A stretch of DNA of 34,091 bases, from positions 1 to 34,091 of the forward strand of contig DASPUT010000162.1 in NCBI GenBank assembly GCA_035622735.1, given 5' to 3'. The notes under the pieces are model-generated. The model was not told where the DNA came from. It saw nothing but the letters and a program-made list of their open reading frames with translations, and did not search any database. How positions within the stretch are numbered: position 1 is the stretch's first letter; every line of letters begins with the position of its first letter. This DNA is from Thermodesulfovibrionales bacterium (GTDB taxonomy: Bacteria; Nitrospirota; Thermodesulfovibrionia; Thermodesulfovibrionales; UBA9159). The translations under genes were made by a program, and so were the position numbers. Positions 14,761 through 32,348 of the stretch are shown piece by piece.

Positions 14761-15057
14761 ATGAAACTATGTGTGCTTGTCAGCGACTTCAGGAATATGG
14801 ATGACACATTATCACGACTGAAGGCGGATAAACTCGGCGTCTTCCTCGTCAGCAACGGTGTATACCACGCAGCGCTAAAAGAGGGCGGCAAGAAATCTTC
14901 GATCCTGGAAAAATCTCCCCACCTCTACGTGCTCTCTGAAGACCTGGAGTCAAGGGGATTTTCCGAGAGTGAAATTGACACCAGAGTGAGATCCATAACA
15001 TACAGCGGCCTCGTCGATTTGCTATTCAACGAATACGAAAAAATTATTTGGATTTAG
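14761..15057 (+). CDS. dsrH: DsrH/TusB-like sulfurtransferase-complex subunit
   Basis: A 98-aa protein of the TusB/DsrH family. The diagnostic blocks are VFLVSNGVYHAAL, HLYVLSEDLESRG and the C-terminal ITYSGLVDLLFNEY ending in an aromatic residue. With DsrE and DsrF it should form the DsrEFH (TusBCD) heterohexamer that takes persulfide sulfur from TusA-type donors and passes it to DsrC. In Allochromatium vinosum DsrH an active Cys20 is present; by eye the aligned residue here is Thr16, and the only Cys is Cys4. It is first in a four-gene operon, with 8 bases to the next start codon. Start ATG with a good AGGAGG. Confidence 0.85.
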   Translation: MKLCVLVSDFRNMDDTLSRLKADKLGVFLVSNGVYHAALKEGGKKSSILEKSPHLYVLSEDLESRGFSESEIDTRVRSITYSGLVDLLFNEYEKIIWI

Positions 15058-15065
15058 GAGGTATC

Positions 15066-15428
15066 ATGGCCAAACTCACCATTGGTATTTTTTCATCACT
15101 TGTCGGTTCTCTCTCCCTCGATTTCGCGGTTAAACTCTCACAAGCCGCTATAAAGAAGGGACACTCAGTAGATTTCTGGCTGTCGGGGAACGCAACGATG
15201 CTTTCCAAGAAAGGCCAGCGGTCTTTTAAGGACTATTCTGCACTCCAAAAGCCCGTTCAGGAACTTTTGGCGACCGGGAAGTTTCAGATAACCGCGTGTG
15301 AGGCGTGTGCTGAGGCAAGGGGATTTCATAAGGAGGATACCATGGAGGGGTGCAAGCGCCACAGCATGGACTGGTACCTCGCAAGCTGCTTCAGTGCAGA
15401 CAGGGTTCTCCACATAGGAGGTGATTAA
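15066..15428 (+). CDS. dsrE: DsrE/TusD-like sulfurtransferase subunit
   Basis: A 120-aa DsrE/TusD-type protein with a Rossmann-like fold. The sulfur-carrying cysteine of TusD/DsrE is conserved in the motif ITACEACAEARGF (about residues 77-89), so this is the catalytic subunit of the DsrEFH complex. A further Cys-rich tail follows (GCKRHSMDWYLASCF). The start is the ATG at 15066, preceded by TAGGAGGT; an upstream in-frame TTG is not needed. It begins 8 bases after the dsrH stop, and dsrF begins one base after its own stop, so the operon is tight. Confidence 0.9.
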   Translation: MAKLTIGIFSSLVGSLSLDFAVKLSQAAIKKGHSVDFWLSGNATMLSKKGQRSFKDYSALQKPVQELLATGKFQITACEACAEARGFHKEDTMEGCKRHSMDWYLASCFSADRVLHIGGD

Positions 15429-15429
15429 T

Positions 15430-15843
15430 ATGGCAACAAAAAAACTTTCATTCATCGTGAAGAGTCTCCCCTATAAAACCGAGGCGTCGAGGCTCGCGTT
15501 AACACATGCCATCGCAAGTCAGACCGTAGAGATTTACCTGGAAGACGGTGACATGGTGGAACCGGTTCTCGCATTCATGGGTGATGGCGTGTTAAACTGT
15601 CTCAAGGACCAAACCGCCATGAACCTTTACGGAGTGACCAGTCTTGAGCAACATATAAAGAATTCGTTGCTCCTTGACTTAAAGGTGATAATCTGTAAAG
15701 AGGATGTGGAGAAGTTTGGTCTTTCCGAAGACGCATTGATTATGGATGCCGAAGATATCGGGGGAGAGACGAAGGCCAGCATCGCACCATTCAGCGAGAT
15801 TATGAAGGAGATGGACTCTTCTGACCATCTCCTATTCTTTTAA
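15430..15843 (+). CDS. dsrF: DsrF/TusC-like sulfurtransferase-complex subunit
   Basis: A 137-aa DsrE-family protein that best fits DsrF/TusC. It has FIVKSLPYKTEASRLALTHA at the N-terminus, GDGVLNCLKDQTAMNLYG in the middle and a C-terminal KVIICKEDVEKFGLSED block. DsrF is the non-catalytic partner in the heterohexamer. The start chosen is the ATG at 15430, served by the AGGAGG at the end of dsrE; an in-frame GTG three codons upstream overlaps dsrE and is less likely. The protein ends in an acidic, Met-rich tail. tusA follows 9 bases later. Confidence 0.85.
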   Translation: MATKKLSFIVKSLPYKTEASRLALTHAIASQTVEIYLEDGDMVEPVLAFMGDGVLNCLKDQTAMNLYGVTSLEQHIKNSLLLDLKVIICKEDVEKFGLSEDALIMDAEDIGGETKASIAPFSEIMKEMDSSDHLLFF

Positions 15844-15852
15844 GGAGGAACT

Positions 15853-16098
15853 ATGGGAGAACTGAGCACTGCAACACCGACAGAAACACTTGATGTCCTT
15901 GGAAGGGTATGTCCATACCCTCTCGTCTTGACAAAAAAAGCGATGGAGAAATTGCCCAGTGGAGCCGTCATTAAGGTGTTATGTGATGCGCCTGCGTCGG
16001 CTGAGGACTCTATTCCAAGGTATGCGGAGAAACAGGGTTTCAAGTTCGAATCCGTGAGGCACGAGGGCTACTGGGAGCTGTACATACAGAAGAAGTAA
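15853..16098 (+). CDS. tusA: TusA-family sulfur carrier protein
   Basis: An 81-aa TusA/SirA-family protein with a two-layer fold. The sulfur-binding motif is CPYP in LDVLGRVCPYPLVLTKKAM (about residues 13-31), matching the family CPxP with the active Cys in the first loop. TusA proteins carry persulfide sulfur from rhodanese or desulfurase donors to DsrEFH and on to DsrC, or to tRNA thiolation. Placed last in the dsrHEF-tusA operon with an AAGGAGG Shine-Dalgarno, a role in supplying DsrEFH is the natural reading. Confidence 0.93.
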   Translation: MGELSTATPTETLDVLGRVCPYPLVLTKKAMEKLPSGAVIKVLCDAPASAEDSIPRYAEKQGFKFESVRHEGYWELYIQKK

Positions 16099-16207: not shown

Positions 16208-16393
16208 CTACATCTCTTTTATCGTTATCGCAGTCGAAGGGCAGACGCCGAGACAGCTCTCGCAAAAGACACACTCCGCCGTCTGATACGGATCTGACTT
16301 GCTCTCCTTCATCTGAAATACGCCCTGCGGACAGGCATTCACGCATTCCTCGCAGCCTTCGCATGTAGCCGTGTTTACCGATACCATATACAC
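16208..16393 (-). CDS. 2[4Fe-4S] ferredoxin
   Basis: A 61-aa clostridial-type ferredoxin with two complete cluster motifs, CEGCEECVNACP (about residues 11-22) and CVFCESCLGVCP (about 41-52). It would be a low-potential one-electron carrier in the cytoplasm. The best start is the GTG at 16393, which follows a strong GGAGGTGAT by six bases; the ATG two codons on is too far from it. It is a single-gene unit, convergent with tusA and divergent from the VOC gene. Possible partners in the window are the flavoproteins at 17179-18420 or formate metabolism, but nothing proves either. Confidence 0.92.
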   Translation of the reverse strand: MYMVSVNTATCEGCEECVNACPQGVFQMKESKSDPYQTAECVFCESCLGVCPSTAITIKEM

Positions 16394-16530
16394 TTAAGAA
16401 TCACCTCCCAAATTTTTTTCCTATTCTGAATAAAAGGCATTCCAGAAATCAATTTGACCTTACATTTTGATTTATTGTTCCTTATCACCGATAATAGGGG
16501 GGAAAGAGAGCCATTGAAGGAGGCCCCTTG

Positions 16531-17115
16531 ATGAAATACACCGGAATCAACCACTTGGCTATGGCGACGGGAGACATGGATAAGACAATCCGTTTCTGGA
16601 GGGACCTGCTCGGAATGAGATTGATCGTCGGGTTGGGAAAACCCGGGTACAGGCATTACTTTTTCGAAATATCGGAGAACGACCTCATAGCTTTCTTTGA
16701 GTGGCCGAAGGTTGAGCCTGTTCCTGAGAAAGAGCACGGCTATCCAGTAGCCGGACCCGTAGTCTTCGATCATGTCTCTTTCGGGCTCGAGACCGAAGAT
16801 GCGCTCTGGGAATTAAAAGACAGACTTGATGCCGCAGGGTTCTGGGTCTCCGAGATCATCGACCATGGATTCATTCACTCTCTCTACTCCTACGACCCCA
16901 ACGGAATCCCCATAGAATTCAGTCATCCTGCGGAGGGCGTCAATGTCCGTAATGACCCCACAATGGCCGATTCCGCCCCTTCACTGATAAGCAGGGAAGG
17001 ACCCGAGCCCCATCCCGAAGAATGGCCCAATGTGGAGCGGCCTACCCCCCGCAGCGAGGGGAAGACTTATCCCGGTGTCGGGAGCGAGCTGTTTCATGGG
17101 ATAGAGAAGACATAG
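16531..17115 (+). CDS. VOC-superfamily (glyoxalase/dioxygenase fold) protein
   Basis: A 194-aa protein. Residues about 1-128 form one vicinal-oxygen-chelate domain: the N-terminal GINHLAMATGDMDKTIRFWR, a central FDHVSFGLE and a terminal YDPNGIPIEFS. His9 (INHLA), His86 (DHVSF) and Glu126 (IEFS) are plausible metal ligands. The remaining 65 residues are Pro- and Glu-rich and look disordered. The reaction cannot be told from the fold; relatives include glyoxalases, fosfomycin-resistance enzymes and extradiol dioxygenases. Start ATG at 16531 with AAGGAGG seven bases upstream. Confidence 0.8.
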   Translation: MKYTGINHLAMATGDMDKTIRFWRDLLGMRLIVGLGKPGYRHYFFEISENDLIAFFEWPKVEPVPEKEHGYPVAGPVVFDHVSFGLETEDALWELKDRLDAAGFWVSEIIDHGFIHSLYSYDPNGIPIEFSHPAEGVNVRNDPTMADSAPSLISREGPEPHPEEWPNVERPTPRSEGKTYPGVGSELFHGIEKT

Positions 17116-17176
17116 CGGCACCGCACAAAAGAGAGTATCCTCTCTGTCAGGATAAGACGCTATTCTTCCGGTGCCG
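17116..17176. terminator. Nested hairpin between convergent genes
   Basis: CGGCACCG (17116-17123) pairs with CGGTGCCG (17169-17176) and encloses a smaller hairpin, GAGAG-TATC-CTCTC (17131-17144). The structure fills the space between the VOC gene and the leftward flavoprotein gene. No T tract is seen, so its role as a terminator is inferred from position. Confidence 0.4.
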
Positions 17177-17178
17177 GC

Positions 17179-17856
17179 TTAGCCGTACGGTCTACGGTCA
17201 AGTCTCGACCGGCATCCTTCTCTCTTTGCCTTACGTCTCCAACCCATATCTCCCATGAATGTATAGAGCCATCGGGGGATAAAAGGTCTTGCCATGAGGG
17301 CCGTTGCTGTTTCCGGCACTGATCTCCCTTCAATGATAGCGGCGGCTGAGAGATCGAGGGCCCTTCTCAGATGCCGAGCCCTACCCCCTGCCTTTTCGAG
17401 TGGCTGACCTCCGATCGCTTCGCCGCCTCCGAAGGCGAGACCTCCTGCCCAGGCAAAGCCGGTTTCTTTTGCGAAGCGTCTGGAGATTGCGAGGGCCGTT
17501 TCGCTCTGACGGGCCTCGGGAAACCCTGAATTCGCAATGGCAAGAAACTCCTGCCTCCTCACATCGGGTCGCCCCTTTCGATCTTCTGCGATAGCCTCGA
17601 GGGCCCTGATAACAGGAGTCGGAAGGCTGTCGATATAGAGCGGAAATGTAAGAACAATGATATCCGCGCCTTCTACTCCACGGAGTAATTTCTCCATGCC
17701 GTCCCGGGATGAGATGGATTGACTGATGAGAATCCTATCCGCCTCCATTCCCTTCTCTTTAACCTTCTCAAGCAGATAGGTGCCGATAGATTCTGATGTG
17801 CTTTTCCCCCTTTTCGGACTCCCGACGAGGAGCAGCATTTTTCTTGTTGTGCCCAT
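17179..17856 (-). CDS. Flavodoxin-fold NAD(P)H oxidoreductase
   Basis: A 225-aa flavodoxin-like protein. The FMN phosphate loop is LLVGSPKRGKSTSES near the N-terminus, and the second flavin loop is TFPLYIDSLPTPVIRAL (about residues 70-86). A third loop, NSGFPEARQSE, is followed by a Gly-rich segment, FGGGEAIGG. The C-terminal 60 residues are basic and aromatic. It probably reduces a quinone, nitro compound or metal using FMN; the substrate is unknown. It starts 6 bases after the stop of the next gene upstream, so it is the second gene of a two-gene unit under the TetR-like operator. Confidence 0.75.
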   Translation of the reverse strand: MGTTRKMLLLVGSPKRGKSTSESIGTYLLEKVKEKGMEADRILISQSISSRDGMEKLLRGVEGADIIVLTFPLYIDSLPTPVIRALEAIAEDRKGRPDVRRQEFLAIANSGFPEARQSETALAISRRFAKETGFAWAGGLAFGGGEAIGGQPLEKAGGRARHLRRALDLSAAAIIEGRSVPETATALMARPFIPRWLYTFMGDMGWRRKAKREGCRSRLDRRPYG

Positions 17857-17862
17857 GTTTTT

Positions 17863-18420
17863 TCACCTGCCTTCCGATAAAAGGGTATGTATCGTTTCCC
17901 TCATTTCCTGAGGTGTCTGGGTACCGTAAAGAAATCCTGCTGCGAAGGCAGGACTATGAAAATTGATGGCATTCTGCTTCACGAGGGTCCGGAATATCTG
18001 TTCGTTCTCCTCATCACGGTCCGGGAGACTCCCGATGGCGAGGAGGCTGGGGTACCTGCCATAACGCGGCTTATGGTGAATCTCCCCGGAAATTTTCTTA
18101 AAGAAGGGAGAGTTGAGCGGGATGAGTCTGTCGACCGCCTTCTTGAGTTCCGACGAGTATCCGCCGAAGGTCACCGGCGTCACAAGAAGGAGAAGGTCAC
18201 TCCGGATGACCAGTCGTGCGATGTCCCTTCCCGCATCGTTGATGACACAGATGCCGGGCGTCTTCACCCAGCACCCGAAACATCCCATACATCCCCCAAC
18301 TTTCGTGTTCCGGAGAACGAACGAATCAACCTGCCATGCCCTTTCCTTCATCTCTTCTTCAAGAAGCACTTTCATGGGAGCATTATCTGCCCCCCATCCG
18401 TCCAGAACTGTGACTCTCAT
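17863..18420 (-). CDS. Iron-sulfur flavoprotein-like NADPH-dependent FMN reductase
   Basis: A 185-aa flavodoxin-fold protein. A Cys cluster CMGCFGCWVKTPGIC (about residues 44-58) matches the compact motif that in archaeal and clostridial iron-sulfur flavoproteins binds a [4Fe-4S] cluster, or that in related proteins forms redox disulfides. The flavin loop is TPVTFGGYSSELKKAVDR. The N-terminal phosphate loop is unusual (DGWGADNAP). It would move electrons between a ferredoxin or NAD(P)H and an unknown acceptor. It is first in the operon with the flavoprotein downstream, and has AAGGAGG before the ATG. The promoter 75 bases upstream carries the putative TetR operator. Confidence 0.75.
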   Translation of the reverse strand: MRVTVLDGWGADNAPMKVLLEEEMKERAWQVDSFVLRNTKVGGCMGCFGCWVKTPGICVINDAGRDIARLVIRSDLLLLVTPVTFGGYSSELKKAVDRLIPLNSPFFKKISGEIHHKPRYGRYPSLLAIGSLPDRDEENEQIFRTLVKQNAINFHSPAFAAGFLYGTQTPQEMRETIHTLLSEGR

Positions 18421-18492
18421 TGCAACCTCCTTGTTTCAGCCGCGGTCTTCATCATAGGTTCTGTTTCCGACGGCAGCATTACCGATGTTCGT

Positions 18493-18521
18493 TAACTAAA
18501 CGTTGTTTACTCTGGTGCCAA
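18493..18521 (-). promoter_or_regulatory. Promoter and operator of the flavoprotein pair
   Basis: On the minus strand TTGGCA (18521-18516) and TAGTTA (18498-18493) are 17 bases apart. Between them lies the palindrome TAAACnnnGTTTA (18497-18509). The same 13-base palindrome sits at the tetR promoter, so the regulator at 18528-19145 probably blocks both. Confidence 0.6.
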
Positions 18522-18527
18522 AAAAAT

Positions 18528-19145
18528 TTATCGCTCTTCCTGCAACAGGGGTCCGAGGAAGAACGCAAGGGCTCCCTGAACGATCAACGGCATCTTCTCT
18601 TCGGGAAACATGGCACACCGCTCCCTGATAATCAGTGATGCGATTCCGTGCACATGGGACCATAAAGAGAATGTCGCCACATCGAGGTCCCCCCCGGGGA
18701 GCCTCCCCGCCTCCATACAGTCCTTCACATTTTCCCTCAGGAATTCATAAGAACGCCTTCCGATGTGCCATTCCTCTCTCTGCCGGATCTTCTTTGCAGG
18801 CCCTCTCATGATGAACATCAGGTCATAGTATTCGGGGTTCTCCAGGGCGAATTCGACATAGACCTGACCATGTCTTTTCAGACGGCGCAAGGGGTCCTTT
18901 ATCGAAAGGACAGTCTGCTGGCGTTTATAAAACTCTTCGAACCCCTTCTCATGGAGCGCATAGAGGATTTCATCCTTGTCTCTAAAATGGAGGTAGATGG
19001 TTGCAGGGCTGTATTCGATCTCCTCGGCGATCCTCCTGAGGGTAATCCGCTCATATCCCTCTTTGAGAAAGAGCTTCATCGCTGCCGTCAGGATGAGGTC
19101 CCGGAGCCTTTCCTTTTCCCGCTCTTTTCTGTCCGCAATTCCCAT
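18528..19145 (-). CDS. TetR/AcrR family transcriptional regulator
   Basis: A 205-aa repressor. Residues about 10-55 are the TetR DNA-binding domain, with the signature helix-turn-helix ITLRRIAEEIEYSPATIYLHF and the family KDEIL continuation. The C-terminal ligand domain resembles the group with a WHG-type segment (LWSHVHGIASL). The ligand is unknown. It lies upstream of the two flavoprotein genes on the same strand, 107 bases away. The same palindrome TAAACnnnGTTTA is found in its own promoter and theirs, so autoregulation and control of the flavoproteins are likely. Confidence 0.9.
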   Translation of the reverse strand: MGIADRKEREKERLRDLILTAAMKLFLKEGYERITLRRIAEEIEYSPATIYLHFRDKDEILYALHEKGFEEFYKRQQTVLSIKDPLRRLKRHGQVYVEFALENPEYYDLMFIMRGPAKKIRQREEWHIGRRSYEFLRENVKDCMEAGRLPGGDLDVATFSLWSHVHGIASLIIRERCAMFPEEKMPLIVQGALAFFLGPLLQEER

Positions 19146-19162
19146 GGCTTACTAAAAAACAC

Positions 19163-19191
19163 AGTTTACTTTCTAAACGTAGTTTATCAAA
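19163..19191 (-). promoter_or_regulatory. tetR promoter with operator palindrome
   Basis: On the minus strand TTTGAT (19191-19186) and TAAACT (19168-19163) are 17 bases apart, with TAAACGTAGTTTA (19174-19186) inside the spacer. An extra half-site, GTTTA (19164-19168), overlaps the -10. Confidence 0.6.
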
Positions 19192-19302
19192 TTAGGGATA
19201 GGCCGTCAAGGGGTTTTTTATGATGAGGAACGTCACCGCGCGTCTTACTGGCGTAGAGATCATGAAGCGCGGGGGATACGAGTGCGACTTTTTTCGATCC
19301 TC

Positions 19303-19926
19303 TCAATCTAAATATCGGATCTTCATGTCTAGCGGCTGTTTTTGTGGTCCCGCGCCGGGCTTCGCGGCATAACCGACAGGAACCACGGCCATGAATTCTC
19401 CGTCTGGCTCTCCGAGGAATCGGAGGAGGTCATCCTTGATAAGGTAGAGAATTCCGAGCCATACCGTCGAGAGCCCGATCGATGTTGCCGCCAGCAGCAG
19501 GTTCTCGACGGCAGCCGCGGAACTCTGGATTTCCATGGTGCGGAAAAAATCCTGAGCCAGATCCTTTTCAACTCTAAAGAGCTCTGTGCCGTGCCTAATG
19601 AGATCGCCGGTATTGGCGATGGCGATGACAACGGGCGCTCCCGCGACCGACCTCGCGGCCATGCGGAGAAGGGCCGATGCCGGGCGCGGAAATCCCTCCG
19701 ATCTGGATGAGACGAGATTAGCCAGTTCCTGCTTCTTCCTGTGTCGCAAGACGACAAACCGCCAGGATTGCTGGTTGTGAGCGGAAGGCGCCTCATTCGC
19801 AGCCTTAAGCAAGACTTGTATCTGGTCGTCAGATACTTCTTGTTTCGTAAAAGACCTGCTGCTGTGCCGGCGTCTGATGGTTTGCAACGTATCGTTCGGC
19901 AAAAAGACAGAATCTATGGGTGTCAC
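19303..19926 (-). CDS. Nitroreductase-family FMN enzyme
   Basis: A 207-aa nitroreductase-fold protein. The FMN phosphate motif is RRRHSSRSF (about residues 18-26), followed by APSAHNQQSWRFVVL, then AVENLLLAATSIGLSTVWLG and a C-terminal VPVGYAAKPG. Such enzymes use NAD(P)H to reduce nitroaromatics, quinones or unsaturated substrates, and some act in cofactor metabolism; the substrate here is unknown. It is a single gene, divergent from the MFS transporter. It follows the same redox-detoxification theme as the neighbouring flavoproteins but does not carry the TetR palindrome upstream. Confidence 0.87.
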   Translation of the reverse strand: MTPIDSVFLPNDTLQTIRRRHSSRSFTKQEVSDDQIQVLLKAANEAPSAHNQQSWRFVVLRHRKKQELANLVSSRSEGFPRPASALLRMAARSVAGAPVVIAIANTGDLIRHGTELFRVEKDLAQDFFRTMEIQSSAAAVENLLLAATSIGLSTVWLGILYLIKDDLLRFLGEPDGEFMAVVPVGYAAKPGAGPQKQPLDMKIRYLD

Positions 19927-20100
19927 GCGTCACCTCCGTACCAGAGACAGAGTTGCAGAGAATATTGCCTGTAATGTATCACAGAAAAGAAGATGAGGCA
20001 ATGCCTTCCCGCGGGAGAACGCCGCAGCCCATCGATTTTCTATCCCGGAAGGGTTTTATCCAAGTTTTCCTGAAACGAATCGCACCGGGGTGGATGTTTT

Positions 20101-20109
20101 TGCTATAAT
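20101..20109 (+). promoter_or_regulatory. Extended -10 promoter of the MFS transporter
   Basis: TGCTATAAT (20101-20109) is a near-perfect extended -10 element, about 49 bases before the transporter ATG. No good -35 is present, which extended -10 promoters do not need. Confidence 0.45.
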
Positions 20110-20157
20110 AGCGCCCGGAAAGAATCTAACTTTCAGGAATGAGGAGAGGAGCGCATA

Positions 20158-21438
20158 ATGGGTAAGAAAGGATGGGTGGTGGTTTTCGGCGGCATGGGCC
20201 TCAATCTGGCGCTCGGGATTTTATACGCCTGGAGTATCTTCGGTAAACAGCTTACCGAGGCGGTGGACAAGGGGGGATTCGGCTGGTCGAAAACAGAGGC
20301 GACTATTCCCTACACGGTGGCGATAGCCTGCTTCGCAGCCATGATGGTGCCTGCCGGACGTCTTCAAGATAGGTTCGGACCGCGCATCGTTGCGACCTGC
20401 GGAGCGATCCTGACCGGGATAGGGCTTATCATCGCAAGTTTCGGAAACCCCGGAACCATTGTGCCTGCCCTGATCGGGTTCGGCCTTTTCGCGGGGACAG
20501 GCATCGGACTCGGGTATGCCTCGGCGACGCCGGCGGCGGTCAAATGGTTTCCGCCCGAGAAGAAAGGGCTCGTTACCGGACTCGTGGTGGCCGGGTTCGG
20601 CCTCGCGCCCGTATATATCGCCCCTCTTTCGAAGCATCTTCTCACTGCGTACGGAATCAGCAATTCCTTCCGGATTCTCGGGATCGCATTCGTGATCGCG
20701 ACGACGATCTTCGCACAGTTCATCAAAAATCCGCCCGCGCCCATACAACCTCAAAGGAACGCCGGACCGGGGACCATCATAAAATCTTCTCACAAGGACT
20801 ATTCGTGGCGGGAGATGGTGAGGTCCCCCCAATTCTATCTGCTCTACATTCAGTATGCCTGCGCGGCTACCGCCGGGCTCATGATCATCGGGCATCTTGC
20901 AAAGATTGTCGCCCTCCAGTCGGGAAATACCATTAAGATCGGCTTTCTCTTTGTCGCGCTTCTCGCGGTCTTTAACGCCTGCGGGCGGGTTGTTGCCGGT
21001 ATCGTGTCCGATTATATCGGAAGGATTGTCACCTTGGCCTTTGTCTGCATCCTGCAGGCCCTTATTATGTTCTTCTTTCCCCAGTTCGGTACTATTACCG
21101 CCTTCATTCTCGGATCGGCAATGGTCGGTTTTAATTACGGTGCCTGTCTTTCGCTTTTTCCTGCCTCGACAGCAGACTATTGGGGCATGAAGAATCTCGG
21201 GTTGAATTACGGGATTCTCTTTACGGCATGGGGTCTGGGAGGAGTCTTCGGCCCTCTCCTAGCCGGGAAGATCGCCGATGCGACCGGCTCTTACACGACG
21301 GCATACTATATCGCGGCTACGTTTTTGCTACTCGCTGCCTTTCTCGCGATGTTCAGCTACATCGGCATTTCCGTGAATGTTCCCGAAAAGGAGATCACGA
21401 TTAGAATCGGAAAGAAAAGGGCGACTGAGACCGTTTAG
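20158..21438 (+). CDS. MFS transporter, oxalate/formate antiporter (OFA) family
   Basis: A 426-aa inner-membrane protein with 12 predicted helices. The N-terminus (VVVFGGMGLNLALGILYAWSIF) and the loop PAGRLQDRFGPR after helix 2 are typical of the OFA family, as are FGLFAGTGIGLGYASATPAAVKWFP and the C-terminal half with GRVVAGIVSDYIGR. OFA members exchange small carboxylates such as oxalate/formate or pyruvate, so the substrate is not certain. The formate dehydrogenase at the window edge makes a formate link tempting but unproven. It has GAGGAGAGGAG before the ATG and no partner gene in its unit. Confidence 0.88.
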   Translation: MGKKGWVVVFGGMGLNLALGILYAWSIFGKQLTEAVDKGGFGWSKTEATIPYTVAIACFAAMMVPAGRLQDRFGPRIVATCGAILTGIGLIIASFGNPGTIVPALIGFGLFAGTGIGLGYASATPAAVKWFPPEKKGLVTGLVVAGFGLAPVYIAPLSKHLLTAYGISNSFRILGIAFVIATTIFAQFIKNPPAPIQPQRNAGPGTIIKSSHKDYSWREMVRSPQFYLLYIQYACAATAGLMIIGHLAKIVALQSGNTIKIGFLFVALLAVFNACGRVVAGIVSDYIGRIVTLAFVCILQALIMFFFPQFGTITAFILGSAMVGFNYGACLSLFPASTADYWGMKNLGLNYGILFTAWGLGGVFGPLLAGKIADATGSYTTAYYIAATFLLLAAFLAMFSYIGISVNVPEKEITIRIGKKRATETV

Positions 21439-21453
21439 CGGTCAACCCGATGT

Positions 21454-21927
21454 TCACTCACAGGCGAAAAAGGTGACGTAAGCCCCCACCTTTGAAACGC
21501 CTGCGACTCGTATCTTTTTGTCCAACATGTTCTCGTTGTGCCCCTTTGACTCTTTCCATCCTTCGAATTGGGCCGCAGCCGTCGAATAATTCCATCCGAC
21601 ATTTTCGACACAGCACATGCGACCCGAGCGACGAAACCTCTCGCCAAAATTATCGTGAGTCAGTCTTTCAGTCTCGCACATGTACTGACTATGGCTTTTT
21701 GCCAGCGTACGGGAAGCTGCATGAAGCGATAGAGGCTTCAGACCGTTCTTCTGGCGATACCGGTTGATTTGATTCAAGAGCTCCTCTTCAAAGGCTGGAG
21801 GAGGCTCCCCGCAGATCTCATGATGCGCTGCGAACAGAGGATGGAGTAACGGGAAAAGGACGACAAGGAACGTCAGGACAGCGATGAAGGACCGCAACGT
21901 TGTTTCTTTCTCCGTTTCACCGGTCAT
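21454..21927 (-). CDS. Secreted CAP-domain (SCP/PR-1-like) protein
   Basis: A 157-aa protein with an N-terminal signal peptide (hydrophobic segment about residues 12-33, ending ...LFAAHH). A compact CAP domain follows: LLNQINRYRQKNGLKPLSLH, then LAKSHSQYMCETERLTHDNFGERF, CVENVGWNYSTA and GHNENMLDKKIRVAGVSKV. His in LTHDN and His in GHNENM are the usual cavity residues. There are five Cys in the mature part, some of which may pair in the periplasm. CAP proteins bind lipids or act on envelopes, but the bacterial ones are poorly understood. It is convergent with the MFS transporter, with 15 bases between the stops. Confidence 0.85.
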   Translation of the reverse strand: MTGETEKETTLRSFIAVLTFLVVLFPLLHPLFAAHHEICGEPPPAFEEELLNQINRYRQKNGLKPLSLHAASRTLAKSHSQYMCETERLTHDNFGERFRRSGRMCCVENVGWNYSTAAAQFEGWKESKGHNENMLDKKIRVAGVSKVGAYVTFFACE

Positions 21928-22078
21928 CTGGTATCAATAGTAACGAAAAGATTGCGGAAGAGCAATAAAAAAAGAACGGATGTTTCGAGGGGCAAGGATT
22001 CTTTTTTTGAGCGGGTTTTAGCGAAGATTTAGCGTGAAATTTGAAAGGGGAAAATTCTGTCGAGTATCCTGAAGGCCT

Positions 22079-22120
22079 CCAGCAGTTCCCGATCAGTCAG
22101 GAAGTCTCGGGAACCGCTGG
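22079..22120. repeat. Long imperfect hairpin downstream of the small membrane-protein genes
   Basis: CCAGCAGTTCCCGA (22079-22092) faces TCGGGAACCGCTGG (22107-22120): 14-base arms with one mismatch around a 14-base loop. It lies in the 225-base gap after the 22153-22551 gene and could be a terminator or an RNA-stability element. No T tract follows. Confidence 0.5.
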
Positions 22121-22152
22121 ACATCTTCATGCGCTGCGCGATCCATCTGCCG

Positions 22153-22551
22153 CTATTTCTCTCCTTCCGCTTTCTTCGGCGCTTTCTTCCGTTTCTTACC
22201 GCCGAGATAGGCCTCAGTCGGTCTCCATCCGAAGGCAGCGCCCCTTCCCGCAACATTCATCAGCCCGCCAACCGCTGCAGAACCGATCGCCGCAAAAAAG
22301 GCAAAGGGAAGGGCAACAACATAAGCGATGCCGATGAATGGGGCTGCGACTATCTTTCCGATGGTCCTTGCCGTTTCCCTGTAGCCGGTCTTCCTGATAT
22401 AGTCCTTGTCTTCCCTGGCCGCATTCGCCAGTGCCGCAAACGGTTTCGGTTTTAGCGCCTCTGCAAAGAGGATATACCCGGCGATGAACATGATCGAAAG
22501 AATGTACTCTACCCCCTTGACGTGTGTCACAAAATCATAGAGCGTATTCAT
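22153..22551 (-). CDS. Small membrane protein with C-terminal GWRP motif (paralogue A)
   Basis: I do not recognise this family. The protein is 132 aa. It has a first membrane helix (about residues 15-33), a charged linker with RKTGYRETA, a hydrophobic hairpin (about 68-98) and a basic tail. Its second half is clearly related to the neighbouring 22618-22860 gene: APFIGIAYVVALPFAFFAAI against GPFLGLLYAIALPFIGIATI, and FGWRPTEAYLGGKKRKK against FGWRPLESHLGGKKRRK. It differs in carrying the extra N-terminal helix. The two genes are in tandem with about 66 bases between them, implying duplication. The basic tail should face the cytoplasm. Confidence 0.7.
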   Translation of the reverse strand: MNTLYDFVTHVKGVEYILSIMFIAGYILFAEALKPKPFAALANAAREDKDYIRKTGYRETARTIGKIVAAPFIGIAYVVALPFAFFAAIGSAAVGGLMNVAGRGAAFGWRPTEAYLGGKKRKKAPKKAEGEK

Positions 22552-22617
22552 GGTTTCCTCCTTTTCCTTCGCGTCTTCTTACCAAAGGGCTAATGCGTTT
22601 ATATTTTGCCCCGACAG

Positions 22618-22860
22618 TCACTTCGGGGTCTCTTTCCTTCTCTTCTTTCCTCCGAGATGGGATTCTAACGGTCTCCATCCAAAGGTCGCGAGATTTCCGA
22701 CGAGGGAAAAGACACCCCCCAAAACCTTCCTCCCTATCAGGGCCGCTATTGTTGCGATGCCGATGAAAGGCAGCGCTATGGCATACAGAAGCCCGAGAAA
22801 CGGTCCCACTGCCAAACTCGAGATGGTTCCTCTTACCCTATGTCCTTCTTCTGCCGTCAT
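22618..22860 (-). CDS. Small membrane protein with C-terminal GWRP motif (paralogue B)
   Basis: Unrecognised family. The protein is 80 aa from the ATG at 22860, which has AGGGGTG seven bases upstream; an ATG at 22902 would add 14 residues but has no Shine-Dalgarno. It has a hydrophobic hairpin (about residues 15-47), then LATFGWRPLESHLGGKKRRKE at the C-terminus. It is the shorter paralogue of the 22153-22551 product and precedes it on the same strand. No enzyme motif, Cys pair or heme motif is present, so a structural or accessory membrane role is more likely than catalysis. Confidence 0.65.
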   Translation of the reverse strand: MTAEEGHRVRGTISSLAVGPFLGLLYAIALPFIGIATIAALIGRKVLGGVFSLVGNLATFGWRPLESHLGGKKRRKETPK

Positions 22861-23047
22861 GACATTCACCCCTTTCTCTCTTATTTTGTCCTCTTGATCC
22901 ATTTATATCAGACTGCAGGGGGGAATGTAATTGGAACAAATTCCTATTTTTAGGGGGAAATTGTCTTAGGAAGCCTTCAGAAAGAGTAGGGCGTGTTGCA
23001 AACCGATCTGAGGCCTTTACTGCTGCCGCCGGGGCATTGAAAAAGCA

Positions 23048-23740
23048 TCAGTCTCCGGTGGGAGATATCTGGAATTCTATGATGGAGTCGAGTCCCAATA
23101 AAGTCTGGGAAAGACGCTGTATGTTTTCTTCCCGCTGCGTGCGGATCGTCATCTCGTATTCGAAAAATCTTCCTCCCTCCAGAAGACGATGGCTTAAGTT
23201 TGCGATGCTGAACCCGTGATCACTGATGAGAGTCTTCAAGTCCCTTTCGGGCATTACCTTGTCCCGATGAAAGCGGAGTGAGTGATGCGCATAGATAAGT
23301 GTCGGCATTCTTGATTCGATCCAGCGAAAGACGGAGAGCGTACCGAGGGTGAGTATCGTCACGATGAAGACGGCGTCGTAAAAACCGACGCCTGCAAGTA
23401 TCCCGATAGCCGCAGTTATCCATATTGACGCGGCGGTGGTCAGCCCCCGTACGGAGAGTCCCTCCTTCATGATGACCCCCGCGCCCAGGAACCCGATGCC
23501 GGTCATGATTCCCTGAGCCATGCGCGTCGGATCGACCTTCACGGTTTCGAACATAGCGCTGGTGAACCATTTCTCCTGATAGATTGTGACCAGCATGAGG
23601 AGGCTTGAAGCGAGGCATACGAGGGTGTGCGTGCGAAACCCGGCGGGGCGACCGTGGTACGTCCTTTCGAACCCGACCATCCCGCCAGCTGCCATTGCTG
23701 CCAAGAGCCGCGTAACGATGTTTACTGTCTCACTGCTCAT
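23048..23740 (-). CDS. MgtC/SapB family membrane protein with C-terminal ACT-like domain
   Basis: A 230-aa protein. Residues 1-145 are the MgtC-type membrane domain with the signature motifs GGMVGFERTYHGRPAGFRTHTLVCL and GIMTGIGFLGAGVIMKEG, then GLTTAASIWITAAIGILAG. Four to five helices are expected. The remaining 80 residues form a soluble domain resembling the ACT-like tail of MgtC. In enteric bacteria MgtC inhibits the ATP synthase and affects Mg2+ and phosphate physiology; most environmental members are uncharacterised. It stands alone, with 145 bases to the next gene on one side and 296 on the other, where I see no gene. Confidence 0.9.
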   Translation of the reverse strand: MSSETVNIVTRLLAAMAAGGMVGFERTYHGRPAGFRTHTLVCLASSLLMLVTIYQEKWFTSAMFETVKVDPTRMAQGIMTGIGFLGAGVIMKEGLSVRGLTTAASIWITAAIGILAGVGFYDAVFIVTILTLGTLSVFRWIESRMPTLIYAHHSLRFHRDKVMPERDLKTLISDHGFSIANLSHRLLEGGRFFEYEMTIRTQREENIQRLSQTLLGLDSIIEFQISPTGD

Positions 23741-24036
23741 CGTCGGGATCCTGAAGAAGAGAATTTTGGATCGTCATTGAGTTTTCTGTATCCAGATCGC
23801 CAATGATAATCTTCATATTTCGTTAGTATATCACAGGCGCGACTTTCAGCTCTAAAGGCAAAAGGAGAAATAGTGTGACTCACTTTCTCGGCAGTGAAGA
23901 CGACGAAGGGTGCCTCGATTCCAGTCGTCACACGGAATGATTACTTCTTGATTTCATTCAATTCCTTGGCGAAAATAAAGAATGAAACCAGGAGACTCGG
24001 TGTGAGGTTAGTAAAATACAACCAAGGAGGAGACGA

Positions 24037-24360
24037 ATGGGATTGGAGTCCAATAGACAGGACCCTGTTGCAACAGATGGGGACAAGTATTCGGTTGTTC
24101 TGGAAAACGAACGCGTTAGGGTGCTCAGGTACCATGACAGGCCTGGAGACAGAACTTTACAACACGCTCACCCTGATTACGTCTTGTACGCAGAGTCTTC
24201 TTTCAAGCGCCGATTGATATTTCCTGATGGTAGTAAGCATGAGGTCGACGTCAAAGCGGGGAGTATCGTTTGGATGAAAGGGCATATCCACATAGGCGAA
24301 AACATAGGAGATACGAATACTGACGTAATATTTGGCGAACTGAAGGAAAATAGAACTTAA
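24037..24360 (+). CDS. Small single-domain cupin protein
   Basis: A 107-aa protein that is one cupin beta-barrel. Motif 1 is reduced: PGDRTLQHAHPDYVLY gives two His (about residues 43 and 45) but lacks the usual Glu, which is replaced around Tyr/Leu. Motif 2 is DVKAGSIVWMKGHIHIGENIG with a His near 88-90. It may bind a metal, but catalysis is doubtful. The start follows AAGGAGGAG. It is convergent with the octaheme cytochrome gene across a 301-base gap, and there is no operon partner. Confidence 0.72.
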   Translation: MGLESNRQDPVATDGDKYSVVLENERVRVLRYHDRPGDRTLQHAHPDYVLYAESSFKRRLIFPDGSKHEVDVKAGSIVWMKGHIHIGENIGDTNTDVIFGELKENRT

Positions 24361-24661
24361 GACATTACGGAAAAGAATCCAAAATAATTATATTGAAACG
24401 ATCGAAGGCGTCCAGCCGACCTGCCGCGCCCATCATTTCAGGGATGCCTCTCACCCGGATCACAGTCAATGGATTCGACAGACGCGCAGAGAAGAGGCTT
24501 TGATCCGTCAACGGGCCTTCTGCGACTGACAAATCGGGGCTTTTTGTTGTCTACGCGCCGGACGGGAGATCTCTCGCATCAAAGGCAGCAGTCATTCCCT
24601 GTTAGTGTCGCTCATCCAAGAATTCAAGCTCTCCCATGGTGCCGTCAAATGCGGAGCACGT
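24361..24661. other. Gene-free gap between the cupin and the octaheme cytochrome
   Basis: 301 bases between two convergent genes. Open frames here are short and have no recognisable domain or Shine-Dalgarno. I see no clear terminator hairpin, tRNA or repeat. It may hold decayed coding sequence, but I found no detectable relative. Confidence 0.5.
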
Positions 24662-26179
24662 TCATTTGATTTCTTTCCCCTTTAGATTCTTCTTCAGTTC
24701 TATCCAGTCCTTCATGTGACTCAGGTTCTCGCTGAGATACCACCAGCCATTCTTAAAGGAAGAATAGTCGGGAGCTCCGGTCATTGCGGAAGAATATCTT
24801 ATTGAATTGCAATAAAAAAGCCATTGTTTCACCCACATTTTTTCTATTGTTTCATCAAAGGGATTTGTTTTGTCCTCTATCCCGGAAGCCCAGGCGTCAA
24901 GAAGAAGCTTTGTGGCTGCAAGGGTCATTTCATTTGTCTCTTTTACCGTATTTTCGAGTTTTGCAAAGTGGCCGTTTATCCAATCGATGTTGTGGCAGCT
25001 GTTACAGACGCTTTTCATGGTATTCATTCTTCTTTCCTGTTCCGATCCACCGATAAGATACTCCGATGCCTGTTCACCCGTGAAGGCCGTAGGCAGCGGC
25101 AGCCCGTCCTTGTTCCTTATGATCGTTGTATCCCCCGACTTAGGCTGGGGATGGCTGTATACAAGACCAAACAGCCGGACCCAGAGTCTGGCACCGAAGT
25201 CATGCGTTCTTTCTGTAATCACTTTGCCATCGGAGGAGACGATGAGGCTATTGTGGCAGACAGCACAGGATGGCGTTTTAAAGTCTCTTCCGACTGTCCA
25301 TGGAACCGCATTGAACTCCCATTCATGCTCCTTGGAGAACAAGATGTCCCCGTGCTTGCTCTCCTCATAGACGTCCCACGCGGGCGTGTCCGGCTCCAGA
25401 TGGCACTGGGCGCACGTATGGGGCTTTCGAGCGGTTTCTATGGAAAAGCTGTGCCTCGGGTGGCATGCCGAGCATGAACCTTTGCTGCCGTCAGGGTTCT
25501 CCCTGCCCACCCCCTGATTCGGCCAGTTCGTGAGGTCGGGGAACATCAACTCTCCCATCTTGGTGTTTACCTTTTTCAATCCTCTTGACTCGACATTTGT
25601 TCCGTGGCATCCGAGGCATGTCTCGCGGAGAGTGTCGTCAGAGGCCTTCTCGGATGAGATCTTTCCGTCCTTTATCTTCTTGAGGCCGGTTACGGTGTCA
25701 ACTAATGCATGATAGACAGGGTTCCCCATCAGGTTCTTAACGGCATTGGCCTTCTTGGTCCCGGAAAATTGATCTGCCTCAACAGGGTGACAGGTCCTAC
25801 AGTCACTCGGAGAAACAACCACATTTATTTTAAATCCCATATGTTCAAAATTATCCCTGTGCTTTTCAGGGTTCTGTCTGTGGCATTCGTAGCATCCGAC
25901 AACGTATCCTGAAAATGCCTCAGGCAATGTATCCGTCGAGATCCTCCGCTCGAGAATGCCTCTTTTCATGGCATCTTCCGGTTTTGTTCTTGAGTGCCTG
26001 CTGGAAAGCCAGTCCTCAACGATCCCGGGCGTAAACATTTTATGACAAGCTACGCAGGCCCGCGTCTGTGGACTCAAGGGAGTCACATCTTCCTTCTCTT
26101 TTTTTTCAGATGCGACACCAAAAGTTGTAAAGACAACAATAGTCAGTAAAGCGATGCTGAATCTGATTATATCTGTCAT
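24662..26179 (-). CDS. Octaheme cytochrome c, hydroxylamine-oxidoreductase-like
   Basis: A 505-aa secreted cytochrome. A signal peptide covers residues about 1-24. Eight CxxCH heme motifs start at about residues 42, 96, 127, 188, 236, 256, 305 and 392. The block ACVACHKMFTPGIVEDWLSSRH around the first heme and the C-terminal GAPDYSSFKNGWWYL helix are typical of the HAO family (multiheme cytochrome with a P460-type or reductive site). Family members oxidise hydroxylamine or hydrazine, or reduce nitrite or hydroxylamine; the type depends on a cross-linking Tyr I cannot place by eye. The start is the ATG at 26179 with AAGGAGGTG; an ATG seven codons upstream is rejected. No quinol-oxidising partner gene sits beside it. 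Confidence 0.85.
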   Translation of the reverse strand: MTDIIRFSIALLTIVVFTTFGVASEKKEKEDVTPLSPQTRACVACHKMFTPGIVEDWLSSRHSRTKPEDAMKRGILERRISTDTLPEAFSGYVVGCYECHRQNPEKHRDNFEHMGFKINVVVSPSDCRTCHPVEADQFSGTKKANAVKNLMGNPVYHALVDTVTGLKKIKDGKISSEKASDDTLRETCLGCHGTNVESRGLKKVNTKMGELMFPDLTNWPNQGVGRENPDGSKGSCSACHPRHSFSIETARKPHTCAQCHLEPDTPAWDVYEESKHGDILFSKEHEWEFNAVPWTVGRDFKTPSCAVCHNSLIVSSDGKVITERTHDFGARLWVRLFGLVYSHPQPKSGDTTIIRNKDGLPLPTAFTGEQASEYLIGGSEQERRMNTMKSVCNSCHNIDWINGHFAKLENTVKETNEMTLAATKLLLDAWASGIEDKTNPFDETIEKMWVKQWLFYCNSIRYSSAMTGAPDYSSFKNGWWYLSENLSHMKDWIELKKNLKGKEIK

Positions 26180-26211
26180 AGACACCTCCTTGCATGGCAA
26201 AATCTAAAGAG

Positions 26212-26649
26212 AAAAATCAACAGACAACAGCTTTGCCGAAACATCTCCCACACGAAAGCACCCTGTCTCTCGCAATTACTTTTTTATAATGTAATTTTCT
26301 CATATAATCAATTCTTTTCAAGCCGCGTCTCTTTTGGGCCGGATTGGCAAGATGTTTCACTTAGAAAATGCGATTCTTCAGCAGGATGATTATGCGAACT
26401 TGTTTTGTAGTGAGATCGCTTGCATTTCAGTGCGCGTCTGATTGTGATGGAAGTCAGTCCATAGATCAAAAATCTGCCGATGTGGTGTATGGATGAAGTC
26501 TTGTCGAGTTTCACTTTCCTGAAAGTGTCGACGCGTCGGAACAGTCCGTGGAGCGATTCTTAGTCCGGGATTTGTGTTTACAGATGGCGTAGACACAAAT
26601 CCGCTTTACAGCACTCTATCCTACTATCGCTCTCACATTAAGAAATAAT
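26212..26649. other. Gene-free region upstream of the octaheme cytochrome
   Basis: About 440 bases without a convincing gene. It contains the cytochrome promoter (26283-26311) and, farther out, a 14-base inverted repeat with one mismatch, GGATTTGTGTTTAC (26568-26581) with GTAGACACAAATCC (26589-26602), around a 7-base loop. Two overlapping minus-strand frames of about 68 codons lack Shine-Dalgarno sites and domains and are not called. Confidence 0.5.
26283..26311 (-). promoter_or_regulatory. Sigma-70 promoter of the octaheme cytochrome gene
   Basis: On the minus strand TTGATT (26311-26306) and TATAAA (26288-26283) are exactly 17 bases apart in an AT-rich stretch. The expected transcript has a leader of about 95 bases before the ATG at 26179. 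Confidence 0.65.
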
Positions 26650-26704: not shown

Positions 26705-27877
26705 CTAATGTTCCAACTCTATCCCTTCCGTCTCTTCCCTGACCGTGACGGCGACCTTATAGAGGATCGTCAGTATCAGAAATCCCATCGCCCAGACCCC
26801 GAGAGATATCACGATTTCGGGAGCGGTCGGCCAGTATTCGGTTATCGTCTCGAAGGGGTTCGGTATAAATCCGCCGATGACTAATCCAAATCCCTTGTCG
26901 ATCCAGAGCGAAATAAAGACTGCGACACAGGCGAGTGCCAGCGTCGGTTCGGCCTTACGCGTAGAGGGATTAACAAGGAGAATGAGGGCTATCGCGGCGA
27001 GCACCGCAGACAACCACATCAGGGGAACGAGTTTCGCGTATTTGGCGATTCCTGAGTAAAGGTAGACGAAGGAATGCATATGGCCGGGTACGCCGCTGTA
27101 AAAGGCGGTGAAGAACTCGAGACCGAGGAAGAAGACATTTGCGATCATCGCATAGGTCACGATCTTCCCCAAGGCCAGAATCGGCTCTCTGCCCGGATCG
27201 AATTTCGTCAGCTTCCGCACGATCAAGGCGAGTATGACGAGCAGCGCAGGTCCGCCCGCAAAGGCAGAGGCGAGAAAGCGGGCAGCCATTATGGCACTCA
27301 ACCAGAAATGCCTTCCGGGAAGTCCGGCGTAGAGAAAGGCCGTTACCGTATGGATGCTGAAGGCCCACGGGATGGAAATGTAGATTAACGTCTTTATCCA
27401 CTGCGGAGGTTTCACCCCTTTGTGGTCCGAACTCAAGGTGATCCAGCCGATGAGGATGTTGAGCACGAGATACCCGTTCAAAACAAGCATATCCCAAAAC
27501 ATGATCGAGTTAGGGGTCGGATGGAGGATGACGTTCAGGACGCGCCTCGGCTGCCCCATATCGATAAAGATGAAGAGCATGCACATCGTTACAGCCGATA
27601 CCGCCAGGAACTCTCCGAGGATGACGATCTTCCCGAATTTTCTGAAGTCATGGAGGTAAAACGGTATGACAAGCATCACCGCGGAAGCCGCCACACCCAC
27701 AAGGAAGGTGAACTGGCCGATATAGAGGCCCCATGAAACATCCCTGCTCATGCCGGTTATTCCGAGACCGTAGTCAAACTGCCTGAGGTAAGCGATAAAG
27801 CCGGCTCCTATCACGGCGAGCAGAAAGAATATCCATGTCCAGTACTTCCGGCTTCCGACCAGAGCCTTTTCAAGCAT
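26705..27877 (-). CDS. dsrP: DsrP, NrfD-like membrane subunit of the DsrMKJOP complex
   Basis: A 390-aa integral membrane protein of the NrfD/PsrC family with about ten helices (for example [20 protein letters not shown] and [19 protein letters not shown]). It exchanges electrons with menaquinol on the periplasmic side and works with the ferredoxin subunit DsrO and the triheme DsrJ. Its start codon overlaps the end of dsrO by 8 bases (ATGCTTGA), indicating translational coupling. It is the last gene before the terminator. The N-terminus [19 protein letters not shown] and the helix with [11 protein letters not shown] are as in known DsrP proteins. There is no sign of truncation. Confidence 0.96.
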
Positions 27878-28697
27878 GTTCCTTACCTCCTATGATGTAA
27901 TAGACACTGGGCTGCGTGCCGAGCTCCGGTTTGCGCCGGATACTGAAGTGCGACCCGAGGATCTTTCTCACCTCGGAATTGGAGTCTTCGAGGTCGCCGA
28001 AATACATCCCCGGTTCCGTGCCCTTTTCTTTCGCCATCTCCCTGGCGGCCTCGACACATGCCGGGATGAGACCCTTCGCAAGCCTCTCGAAGCAGAAGGT
28101 GCATTTTTCGACGACACCCTTCGTCCTCGTGGGGTACTCCACGTTCTCCTCCTTGATGAAGGGGCGCGGGTCCCTCCAGTTGAAGCTCCTCGCTCCGAAA
28201 GGGCAGGCCGCCATGCAGAACCTGCAGCCGATACAACGGTGCTGGTCCATCATAACTATCCCGTCACTCTTCCTCTTAAAGGTGGCCTTCGTGGGACAGA
28301 CCCTCACGCAGGGAGGATTGTCACAGTGATTACAGAGCACGAGAAAAGGCTTCTCTTTCATTTCCTCCGGCAGGAAACTATTCTCCTGCCCCGGGAAGAC
28401 ATGCTCATAGGTGTCCGACCATATCCACTTTATCTCGTCCTTCGGGTTGCCGAAATCAGGGACATTATGGATGCTGTGGCAGGCGCGCATCACCTTCTTA
28501 TAGTCTTCATCGGTCTTGAACTTGGACATATCGACCACCATGGACCATCTCTTCGCCGTGAGGGCTTTCTCGTCGGACAGAACGTGGGAAGCCTCCAGTT
28601 CACCCCTCCGGAGGCCGCTGACGAGCGCCGAACCCCCGAGCCCCAGAACGGCAGAAATCCCTGCAACCTTTATAAACTCTCTTCTGTTCATGCTCAT
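27870..28697 (-). CDS. dsrO: DsrO, periplasmic iron-sulfur subunit of DsrMKJOP
   Basis: A 275-aa ferredoxin-like protein. The twin-arginine signal [20 protein letters not shown] at the N-terminus sends it folded to the periplasm. Four cluster-binding stretches are visible: [34 protein letters not shown] with a later Cys, and a Cys in the first quarter (RACHSIH). The start is the ATG at 28697, which overlaps the dsrJ stop as ATGA and has GGAG eight bases upstream; a longer form from 28766 would put residues before the Tat motif. It passes electrons between DsrJ and DsrP. Confidence 0.96.
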
Positions 28698-29098
28698 GAC
28701 TCTTTCTCCTTCGGCGCTATATGGCAATTCCAGCAGTAGGGGTTCACCGCCAAGTAGGTGTGGCACGCATCACAGAACTTCTTCTTGTTGGAATGGCAGT
28801 GCATGCACGTGTTTTGAAGACTGATCGTATATTGCTTTCCCTCAGAATTTACATAGAGTCTCTGGCCGTCCCGCACCGCCGAGTCCCTCCATTCATTGAG
28901 CAATTTCATGTGCTCGGCCCTCATAAACGCCTTCGACTCGACGCACTTCTTCTCCGCCAGCTTCTGGATTTCGGGGGTATCGATCTTCGGTTCCGGCGCG
29001 ACATTGGCCTTCCCGATATTCAGGAGAAAGGGCAAGGTTACCAGACCGACGAAGATGACGAGCCCGAGGATGATTTTGCCTCCGTTATAGATCTTCAT
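28694..29098 (-). CDS. dsrJ: DsrJ, triheme cytochrome c of DsrMKJOP
   Basis: A 134-aa protein with an uncleaved N-terminal membrane anchor (about residues 8-26) and a periplasmic domain with three heme motifs: CMHCH (98), CDACH (109) and CWNCH (122). Cys52 in KKCVESKAFMRAEHM corresponds in position to the cysteine that ligates one heme in A. vinosum DsrJ (His/Cys ligation), a hallmark of this subunit. Its ATG shares a base with the dsrK stop (TAATG) and its stop overlaps dsrO (ATGA). DsrJ is essential for sulfur oxidation in phototrophs; its redox partner in the periplasm is unknown. Confidence 0.96.
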   Translation of the reverse strand: MKIYNGGKIILGLVIFVGLVTLPFLLNIGKANVAPEPKIDTPEIQKLAEKKCVESKAFMRAEHMKLLNEWRDSAVRDGQRLYVNSEGKQYTISLQNTCMHCHSNKKKFCDACHTYLAVNPYCWNCHIAPKEKES

Positions 29099-30711: not shown

Positions 30712-30713
30712 GG

Positions 30714-32278: not shown

Positions 32279-32348
32279 CTTCACCTCCCCTTTCCCCCTG
32301 AAGCTCTCCGCCGGACAGCGAATACCTTCATCTTTGATCGACCTGTCC

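Follow-up and report, generated by a model that had tools for sequence, protein, structure and literature searches.

A dsrHEF-tusA sulfur relay operon linked to a reductive-type dsr superlocus in the Thermodesulfovibrionales

The window, by which we mean the whole stretch of 34,091 nucleotides that was analysed, is contig C162 of a 2.60-Mb metagenome-assembled genome (MAG) of the order Thermodesulfovibrionales (Nitrospirota), which is 95.1% complete and 2.15% contaminated. Positions 14761-16098 of its forward strand hold dsrH, dsrE, dsrF and tusA in a tight operon with intergenic gaps of 8, 1 and 9 nt (Table 1); a GTG at 15421 is an alternative start for dsrF. A four-gene operon of this kind had been proposed in a sequence-only reading of the window, and all of its genes are found at that place and on that strand, with domain matches that agree.

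Table 1. Genes and features of the relay, of the dsr region and of the paralogous loci (window positions, unless a locus is named)
Feature	Position	Strand	Length and evidence
dsrH (TusB-like subunit)	14761..15057	+	98 aa; PF04077 1.7e-11, TIGR03011 5.2e-13; profile match 2hy5_C DsrH 9e-8
dsrE (TusD-like, catalytic subunit)	15066..15428	+	120 aa; C78-E-A-C81; PF02635, TIGR03012 1.6e-5
DsrE CEAC codons (Cys78-Glu-Ala-Cys81), inferred sulfur-transfer site	15297..15308	+	alignment and conservation
dsrF (TusC-like subunit)	15430..15843	+	137 aa from ATG; PF02635, TIGR03010 6.5e-7
tusA	15853..16098	+	81 aa; Cys20 in C-P-Y-P motif; PF01206 5.9e-22
Two-[4Fe-4S] ferredoxin	16208..16393	-	61 aa; in relatives the next gene downstream of dsrP, same strand as dsr
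Insertion separating relay and ferredoxin from dsrP	16450..26600		missing from the superlocus of most relatives
dsrP	26705..27877	-	NF045798 1.8e-147
dsrO (ferredoxin-like subunit)	27870..28766	-	Fer4 domains; between dsrP and dsrJ; synteny
dsrJ (multihaem c subunit)	28694..29098	-	CXXCH motifs; position; synteny
dsrK	29098..30711	-	NF045796 1.4e-218
dsrM	30714..31715	-	NF038037 6.2e-165
RsbRD_N-domain protein in dsrT position	31769..32362	-	PF14361
dsrC, inferred sulfur acceptor	32493..32828	-	111 aa; CX10C tail Cys99/Cys110; TIGR03342 2.7e-49
Two small conserved dsr-superlocus genes (118 aa; HEAT repeat)	32994..34054	-	synteny
Paralogous stop-containing dsrE	L088 ~6.2 kb; L089:5081-5434; L090:4754-5110; L091; L092; L093		

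The best NCBIfam models are TusD for DsrE and TusC for DsrF, and the equivalog cut-offs are missed by DsrE (24.8 of 89 bits), DsrF (29.3 of 94) and DsrH (49.0 of 49.2). Since the first two scores are far under their cut-offs and that of DsrH marginally so, the relay is not close to type I DsrEFH or to TusBCD. The best NCBIfam match of TusA, to the YedF N-terminal model at 51.6 bits, is under its cut-off too. A PDB profile search with DsrF gave no match; a structure search did. The top PDB matches of the AlphaFold models of DsrE and DsrF include chains of DsrEFH (2HY5), TusBCD (2D1P) and YchN, with 2HY5_A the best match for DsrE (pLDDT 88.8); for DsrF, YchN and 2HY5 chains come top, and 2HY5_B has the highest query TM-score among the top three. 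The adjacency of genes for all three subunit folds (DsrE, DsrF and DsrH) identifies the product as a DsrEFH-fold complex, type left aside.

In the PDB, a profile of 24 DsrE sequences matches YchN (1JX7) and Allochromatium vinosum DsrE (2HY5_A); its alignment to the latter sets Cys78 of the relay protein against the sulfur-transfer Cys78 of A. vinosum. Both Cys78 and Cys81 are invariant in the 24 homologues, forming a C-x-x-C, and Cys96 and Cys108 vary; the earlier description of an intact DsrE cysteine motif (CEACAEARG) is thus borne out. Type I DsrE has alanine in place of Cys81, whereas YchN has a C-x-x-C like that of the relay. The order has another, paralogous relay (L088-L093), arranged ArsR-dsrE-F-H, next to which lie an RND transporter gene, a DsrE2-like gene and one for an SQR-like flavoprotein. 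In 6/6 of these loci dsrE has an in-frame stop exactly at the first active-site cysteine, the codon being TGA in 5/5 of those read, and the residues after it are GGC (UGGC), or UTGC-like in L088. This paralogue is predicted to be a selenoprotein with a Sec-x-x-Cys (U-x-x-C) site; U-x-x-C DsrE-like selenoproteins are already known (PMC1088965). The exchange of Cys and Sec supports a catalytic role for the first position, and by analogy the second cysteine of DsrE may resolve the first Cys or Sec. The DsrH search gave no Sec-type relay in the window's genome. We reject an assignment of this second DsrH set to the YTD cluster, as its genes are ArsR-EFH-SQR-like-RND. A wider reading, one part of which makes the U-x-x-C relay beside the SQR-like gene an oxidative counterpart, seems to us quite improbable when its parts are taken jointly.

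The relay shares the window with dsrMKJOP (26705-31715) and dsrC, as had been observed earlier, at distances of 10.6 kb and about 16 kb respectively; the dsrC is of CX10C type. Between dsrC and dsrM, where published Nitrospirae synteny has dsrT (PMC5812927), lies the gene for an RsbRD_N-domain protein. The spacing of about 10 kb to dsrMKJOP was correctly noted as a distance; it does not represent the arrangement of the family, as the gap is a local insertion. The inserted genes encode a glyoxalase, two flavoproteins, TetR, a nitroreductase, MFS, CAP and MgtC proteins and a multihaem cytochrome. The last (512 aa, 24662-26200) has a weak match to hydrazine dehydrogenase. The same glyoxalase adjoins the ferredoxin in G059 (L132), and the insertion may therefore be shared.

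The remainder of a Dsr pathway is found on other contigs of the MAG. Contig C193 (L010) carries dsrA, dsrB, a 72-aa dsrD adjoining dsrB, and cbiA(dsrN). In relatives, cbiA(dsrN)-dsrD-dsrB-dsrA come next after the two small genes with which the window ends, and are contiguous with them in L122 and L126; we sought an overlap between the window end and the C193 sequence and found none, so that the adjacency is drawn from the synteny of these two loci only. The dsrD profile has DsvD (1UCR) as its best PDB match (1.7e-7), and the single protein falls short of the Pfam cut-off (22.9, with 24.2 required). In a DsrA tree with phage Lau218 rDsrA as the oxidative reference, the host groups with Desulfovibrio vulgaris and Archaeoglobus fulgidus in the reductive clade, with an SH-aLRT of 100 on the dividing branches; the opposite clade contains the phage sequence and members of the phylum with dsrL, some of which have type I dsrEFH. 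Scans for DsrA gave no relative on viral contigs and none on plasmids. Contig C98 encodes sat-aprB-aprA-qmoABC (order read from ORF sequences). The sequence-only reading had named dsrAB, dsrD, aprBA/qmo, sat and dsrL as genes to look for and had suggested placing DsrA in the oxidative/reductive tree; all are present apart from dsrL, which was not found in a search of the host genome, and together the reductive DsrA, dsrD, CX10C dsrC, dsrMK(JOP), sat, aprAB and qmo amount to a reductive Dsr pathway. Two candidates for dsrL (L116 and L117) were rejected: they lack the C-terminal ferredoxin domain, and their identity to DsrLs is 34-38%, where DsrLs among themselves reach 51% or more. The genome also encodes NapA (1404 bits), a CtaD-like haem-copper oxidase (658 bits) and, on C26, MnmA. 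Its five DsrC-family genes comprise the window copy and one on C182, both CX10C, a TusE-like paralogue on C170 (L114) whose C-terminus has only one Cys, and two without the pattern.

We considered whether C193 is a contaminant, given that its DsrA is 90% identical to that of family f12 and 77% to that of G004 in its own family, and rejected this, since G049, G017 and G059 share the allele at 91-93%. The host's family has two dsrAB alleles, that of the host, G017, G049 and G059 (91-93% in DsrA, ~90% to f12) and that of G004, G029 and G039 at 75-77%, a pattern which suggests that dsrAB has been exchanged between families. A second, very divergent DsrAB-like pair (DsrA identity 33%) lies outside the reductive locus in two genomes (L123, G017:C73; L133, G120:C25). 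The MAG also contains a second abhydrolase/dsrHEF-tusA/ferredoxin block of the same gene order on a 3.1-kb contig (L011, G000:C111:1-3102), with relay proteins 70-84% identical to those of the window; contamination from a related genus is the likelier explanation, rather than true duplication.

Comparison of window and C193 proteins by tblastn with 38 relatives' loci, 13 dsr-region stretches and further family members reveals a common layout, smc | dsrA-B-D-cbiA-(HEAT, 118-aa gene)-dsrC-dsrT-dsrM-K-J-O-P-ferredoxin, followed by a convergent tusA-F-E-H. In L074-L081, L083, L085 and L086 the dsr superlocus ends with the relay. The order H-E-F-tusA is identical in all 38/38 loci of the GTDB scan, which excludes chance; having dsrH first and tusA last had been remarked on as a departure from the A. 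vinosum order, and while that order is present it is the normal one across the Thermodesulfovibrionales rather than a peculiarity. Within the fetched flanks, dsrMKJOP genes (or a DsrMK variant) are seen in 16/38 loci and the ferredoxin in 20/38. The linkage can be even tighter than in the window, which strengthens the earlier assignment of the relay to the Dsr pathway: in L018, K-J-O-P-ferredoxin-H-E-F-tusA are all co-directional, and in L108 (G153:C132), from another class of the phylum, dsrA-B-D-cbiA-dsrC-ferredoxin-H-E-F-dsrT-dsrM occupy one strand, with no tusA seen beside that operon. In samples of some families (f3, f13, f2 and f4) the relay is away from dsr genes. In L080, L028 and L081 a DsrMK pair that is divergent (32-47% identity) and has no JOP genes takes the place of dsrMKJOP, and the ferredoxin and tusA-F-E-H are retained alongside. 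Two f12 genomes have a chemoreceptor-like membrane protein pair and a multihaem c-type cytochrome between dsrD and cbiA (L076:4081-5999, L079:13012-14971).

Among 150 genomes of the order, dsrA is found in 143 and DsrH in 113, the DsrH counts including the second, paralogous subfamily and thus being upper bounds for the relay, uncorrected for relatedness. DsrH is sparse in f9 (1/16) and f10 (2/18), jointly 3/34, and occurs in 110/116 of all others. The f9 family is probably Thermodesulfovibrio. We infer that f10, whose DsrA sequences group with D. vulgaris, is the SM23-35 family; published work ascribes laterally acquired dsrAB to that family and reports that dsrEFH is absent from it. MnmA was matched in 150/150 genomes, and so also in the 37 in which DsrH is missing (15/16 of f9 and 16/18 of f10 among them); 138 of the 150 score over the cut-off.

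We propose that the operon would encode a DsrEFH-type heterotrimeric sulfurtransferase together with its TusA donor, serving a dissimilatory Dsr pathway with reductive-type DsrAB. Sulfane sulfur, with polysulfide, S0 or thiosulfate as candidate sources, would be loaded on TusA Cys20, handed to DsrE Cys78 and from there to the CX10C tail of DsrC; the resulting DsrC-persulfide would be oxidised by DsrMKJOP to the DsrC-trisulfide, from which DsrAB would release sulfite, and AprBA/Sat with QmoABC would form sulfate. The sulfate-reduction pathway would in this way be run oxidatively via the relay, possibly with nitrate or oxygen as acceptor, or would provide the oxidative arm of a disproportionation. 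According to the text of Plum-Jensen et al. (2026; PMC13293266), a homologous type II complex transfers sulfur in vitro between TusA and DsrE both ways and from DsrE to DsrC one way, the TusA-DsrE step depending on the DsrE cysteine. The genomic tie of the relay to DsrC and DsrMKJOP, taken with the type II chain, makes the same chain the best reading for the host relay. Sulfur delivery from TusA through DsrE to DsrC, feeding a reductive-type Dsr pathway that runs oxidatively or in disproportionation, has in our estimate a probability of roughly two in three. The direction in which DsrAB works is not evident from sequence, and we share the caution of the sequence-only reading on the direction of flow; by analogy, the one-way transfer to DsrC in the type II homologue and the existence of acceptors favour oxidation or disproportionation, and both the transfers in this lineage and their direction are inferred. 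Counting against the proposal are the presence of dsrD and the failure to find dsrL, both typical of reducers, the families with the relay away from dsr, the families f9 and f10, which run Dsr without it, and the second copy on C111.

The chemistry would be alike as far as DsrC, and the net outcome opposite, if the relay were a reductive accessory that supplies DsrC with sulfane sulfur (of polysulfide, S0 or thiosulfate origin), with DsrMKJOP reducing the DsrC-persulfide to sulfide. Loading of DsrC in vitro leaves its subsequent fate unfixed, and the reductive DsrA, the presence of dsrD, the missing dsrL and the ferredoxin gene tied to relay and dsr operon would all suit such a role, as would the C-x-x-C of DsrE and the Sec-x-x-Cys of its paralogue, which suggest redox chemistry beyond transfer. 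Against this, among the 46 characterised type II DsrEFH cultures in the text of PMC13293266, most sulfate reducers are not dependent on S0 reduction, several of the five cultures tested there oxidised sulfur, and the host genome encodes NapA and a terminal oxidase, so that we regard a reductive accessory as possible but unlikely.

The sequence-only reading had held that a purely reductive dsrAB with dsrD, together with a DsrE failing to pass sulfur to DsrC, would assign the relay to tRNA thiolation or another task. The reductive dsrAB and dsrD are indeed present, but that conclusion does not follow from them, since DsrC receives sulfur from the type II homologue in vitro and is also the partner indicated by the surroundings of the operon. 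A TusABCDE-like housekeeping role, in which the relay would supply MnmA for 2-thiouridine synthesis, could draw on the protein families shared with Escherichia coli TusBCD, on the MnmA gene and on the TusE-like DsrC paralogue; it is made very improbable by the occurrence of MnmA throughout the order, also in genomes without the relay, by neighbours that are dsr genes rather than mnmA or iscS, and by a best DsrC candidate of CX10C rather than TusE type. We give equally little credence to delivery of sulfur to some other biosynthetic process (cofactor, Fe-S or selenium metabolism) with a merely historical dsr linkage: the YedF-like score of TusA and the loss of linkage in the f3 and f13 samples would fit it, while the conserved dsr-linked ferredoxin argues for the Dsr role, as do L018 and L108, two separate lineages whose dsr operons include the relay in the same orientation.

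Environmental surveys assign sulfate reduction or sulfur oxidation by dsrEFH, dsrD and DsrAB type, and here one superlocus, in a layout common to many members of an order, combines a marker of reducers (dsrD) with one of oxidisers (dsrEFH). The use of DsrEFH as a marker of oxidative Dsr metabolism, adopted in the first interpretation of this window, is outdated, as type II DsrEFH occurs mainly with reductive dsrAB (in 73.9% of genomes, according to the text of PMC13293266) and does so in the host. Both dsrD and dsrE have been reported absent from most Thermodesulfovibrionia (PMC11033732), for which the low scores of DsrD (22.9 against 24.2 in Pfam) and DsrE (24.8 against 89) offer a plain reason. 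The relay also provides a genomic handle on reversed sulfate reduction in mesophilic Nitrospirota, a question posed in PMC5812927.

The kind of relay described here is already covered by the type II DsrEFH of Plum-Jensen et al. (2026), which co-occurs with reductive DsrAB and whose subtype 1, as that text has it, is mostly from Nitrospirota and closest to type I. A dsr superlocus with a dedicated ferredoxin and an invariant C-x-x-C was not found in the literature searched, which included the text of PMC13293266; the dsr-linked arrangement with these two features, and the reason that surveys missed dsrE and dsrD, are apparently new relative to that text. As type II is described there, it shares with the host relay three DsrE/F/H-fold subunits that resemble type I little, a single transfer cysteine in DsrE, a tusA in the operon and reductive dsrAB in the genome. 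By its low type I identity, syntenic E/F/H with tusA and reductive dsrAB the relay would belong to type II, for whose HMMs the authors set a score above 80 bits. The described cable-bacterial cluster, by its locus tags, runs in the order yeeE, tusA, dsrEFH, whereas the host operon is H-E-F-tusA, with no Sulf_transp gene near it in the window or the compared loci (a truncated one, a yeeE fragment, is on C114), and differs further in its tie to dsrABDNCTMKJOP and ferredoxin and in its invariant C-x-x-C.

Type I of the sulfur oxidisers, represented by A. vinosum 2HY5 and, within the same phylum, by G160 (L102), has the same fold, subunit set, Cys78 position and proposed partner DsrC, and from it the host relay departs in falling under every NCBIfam equivalog cut-off, in gene order, in the extra Cys81 and in accompanying a reductive DsrA and dsrD in place of oxidative dsrAB and dsrL. 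E. coli TusBCD (2D1P) likewise shares the fold and subunit set; its acceptor and context are TusE and MnmA, where those of the host relay are a CX10C DsrC and a dsr operon. The YTD cluster (yedE-tusA-dsrE-chp), a marker of disproportionation (PMC12998232), also brings together tusA and DsrE-fold genes in bacteria with reductive dsrAB, but the host relay has no YedE neighbour. Closest in its surroundings is the dsr locus of 'Candidatus Sulfobium' (PMC5812927), which shares the dsrABDN-C-T-MKJOP synteny, sat-aprBA, qmoABC and nitrate reduction; there sqr is the sole gene of oxidative metabolism reported, and the relay is not described.
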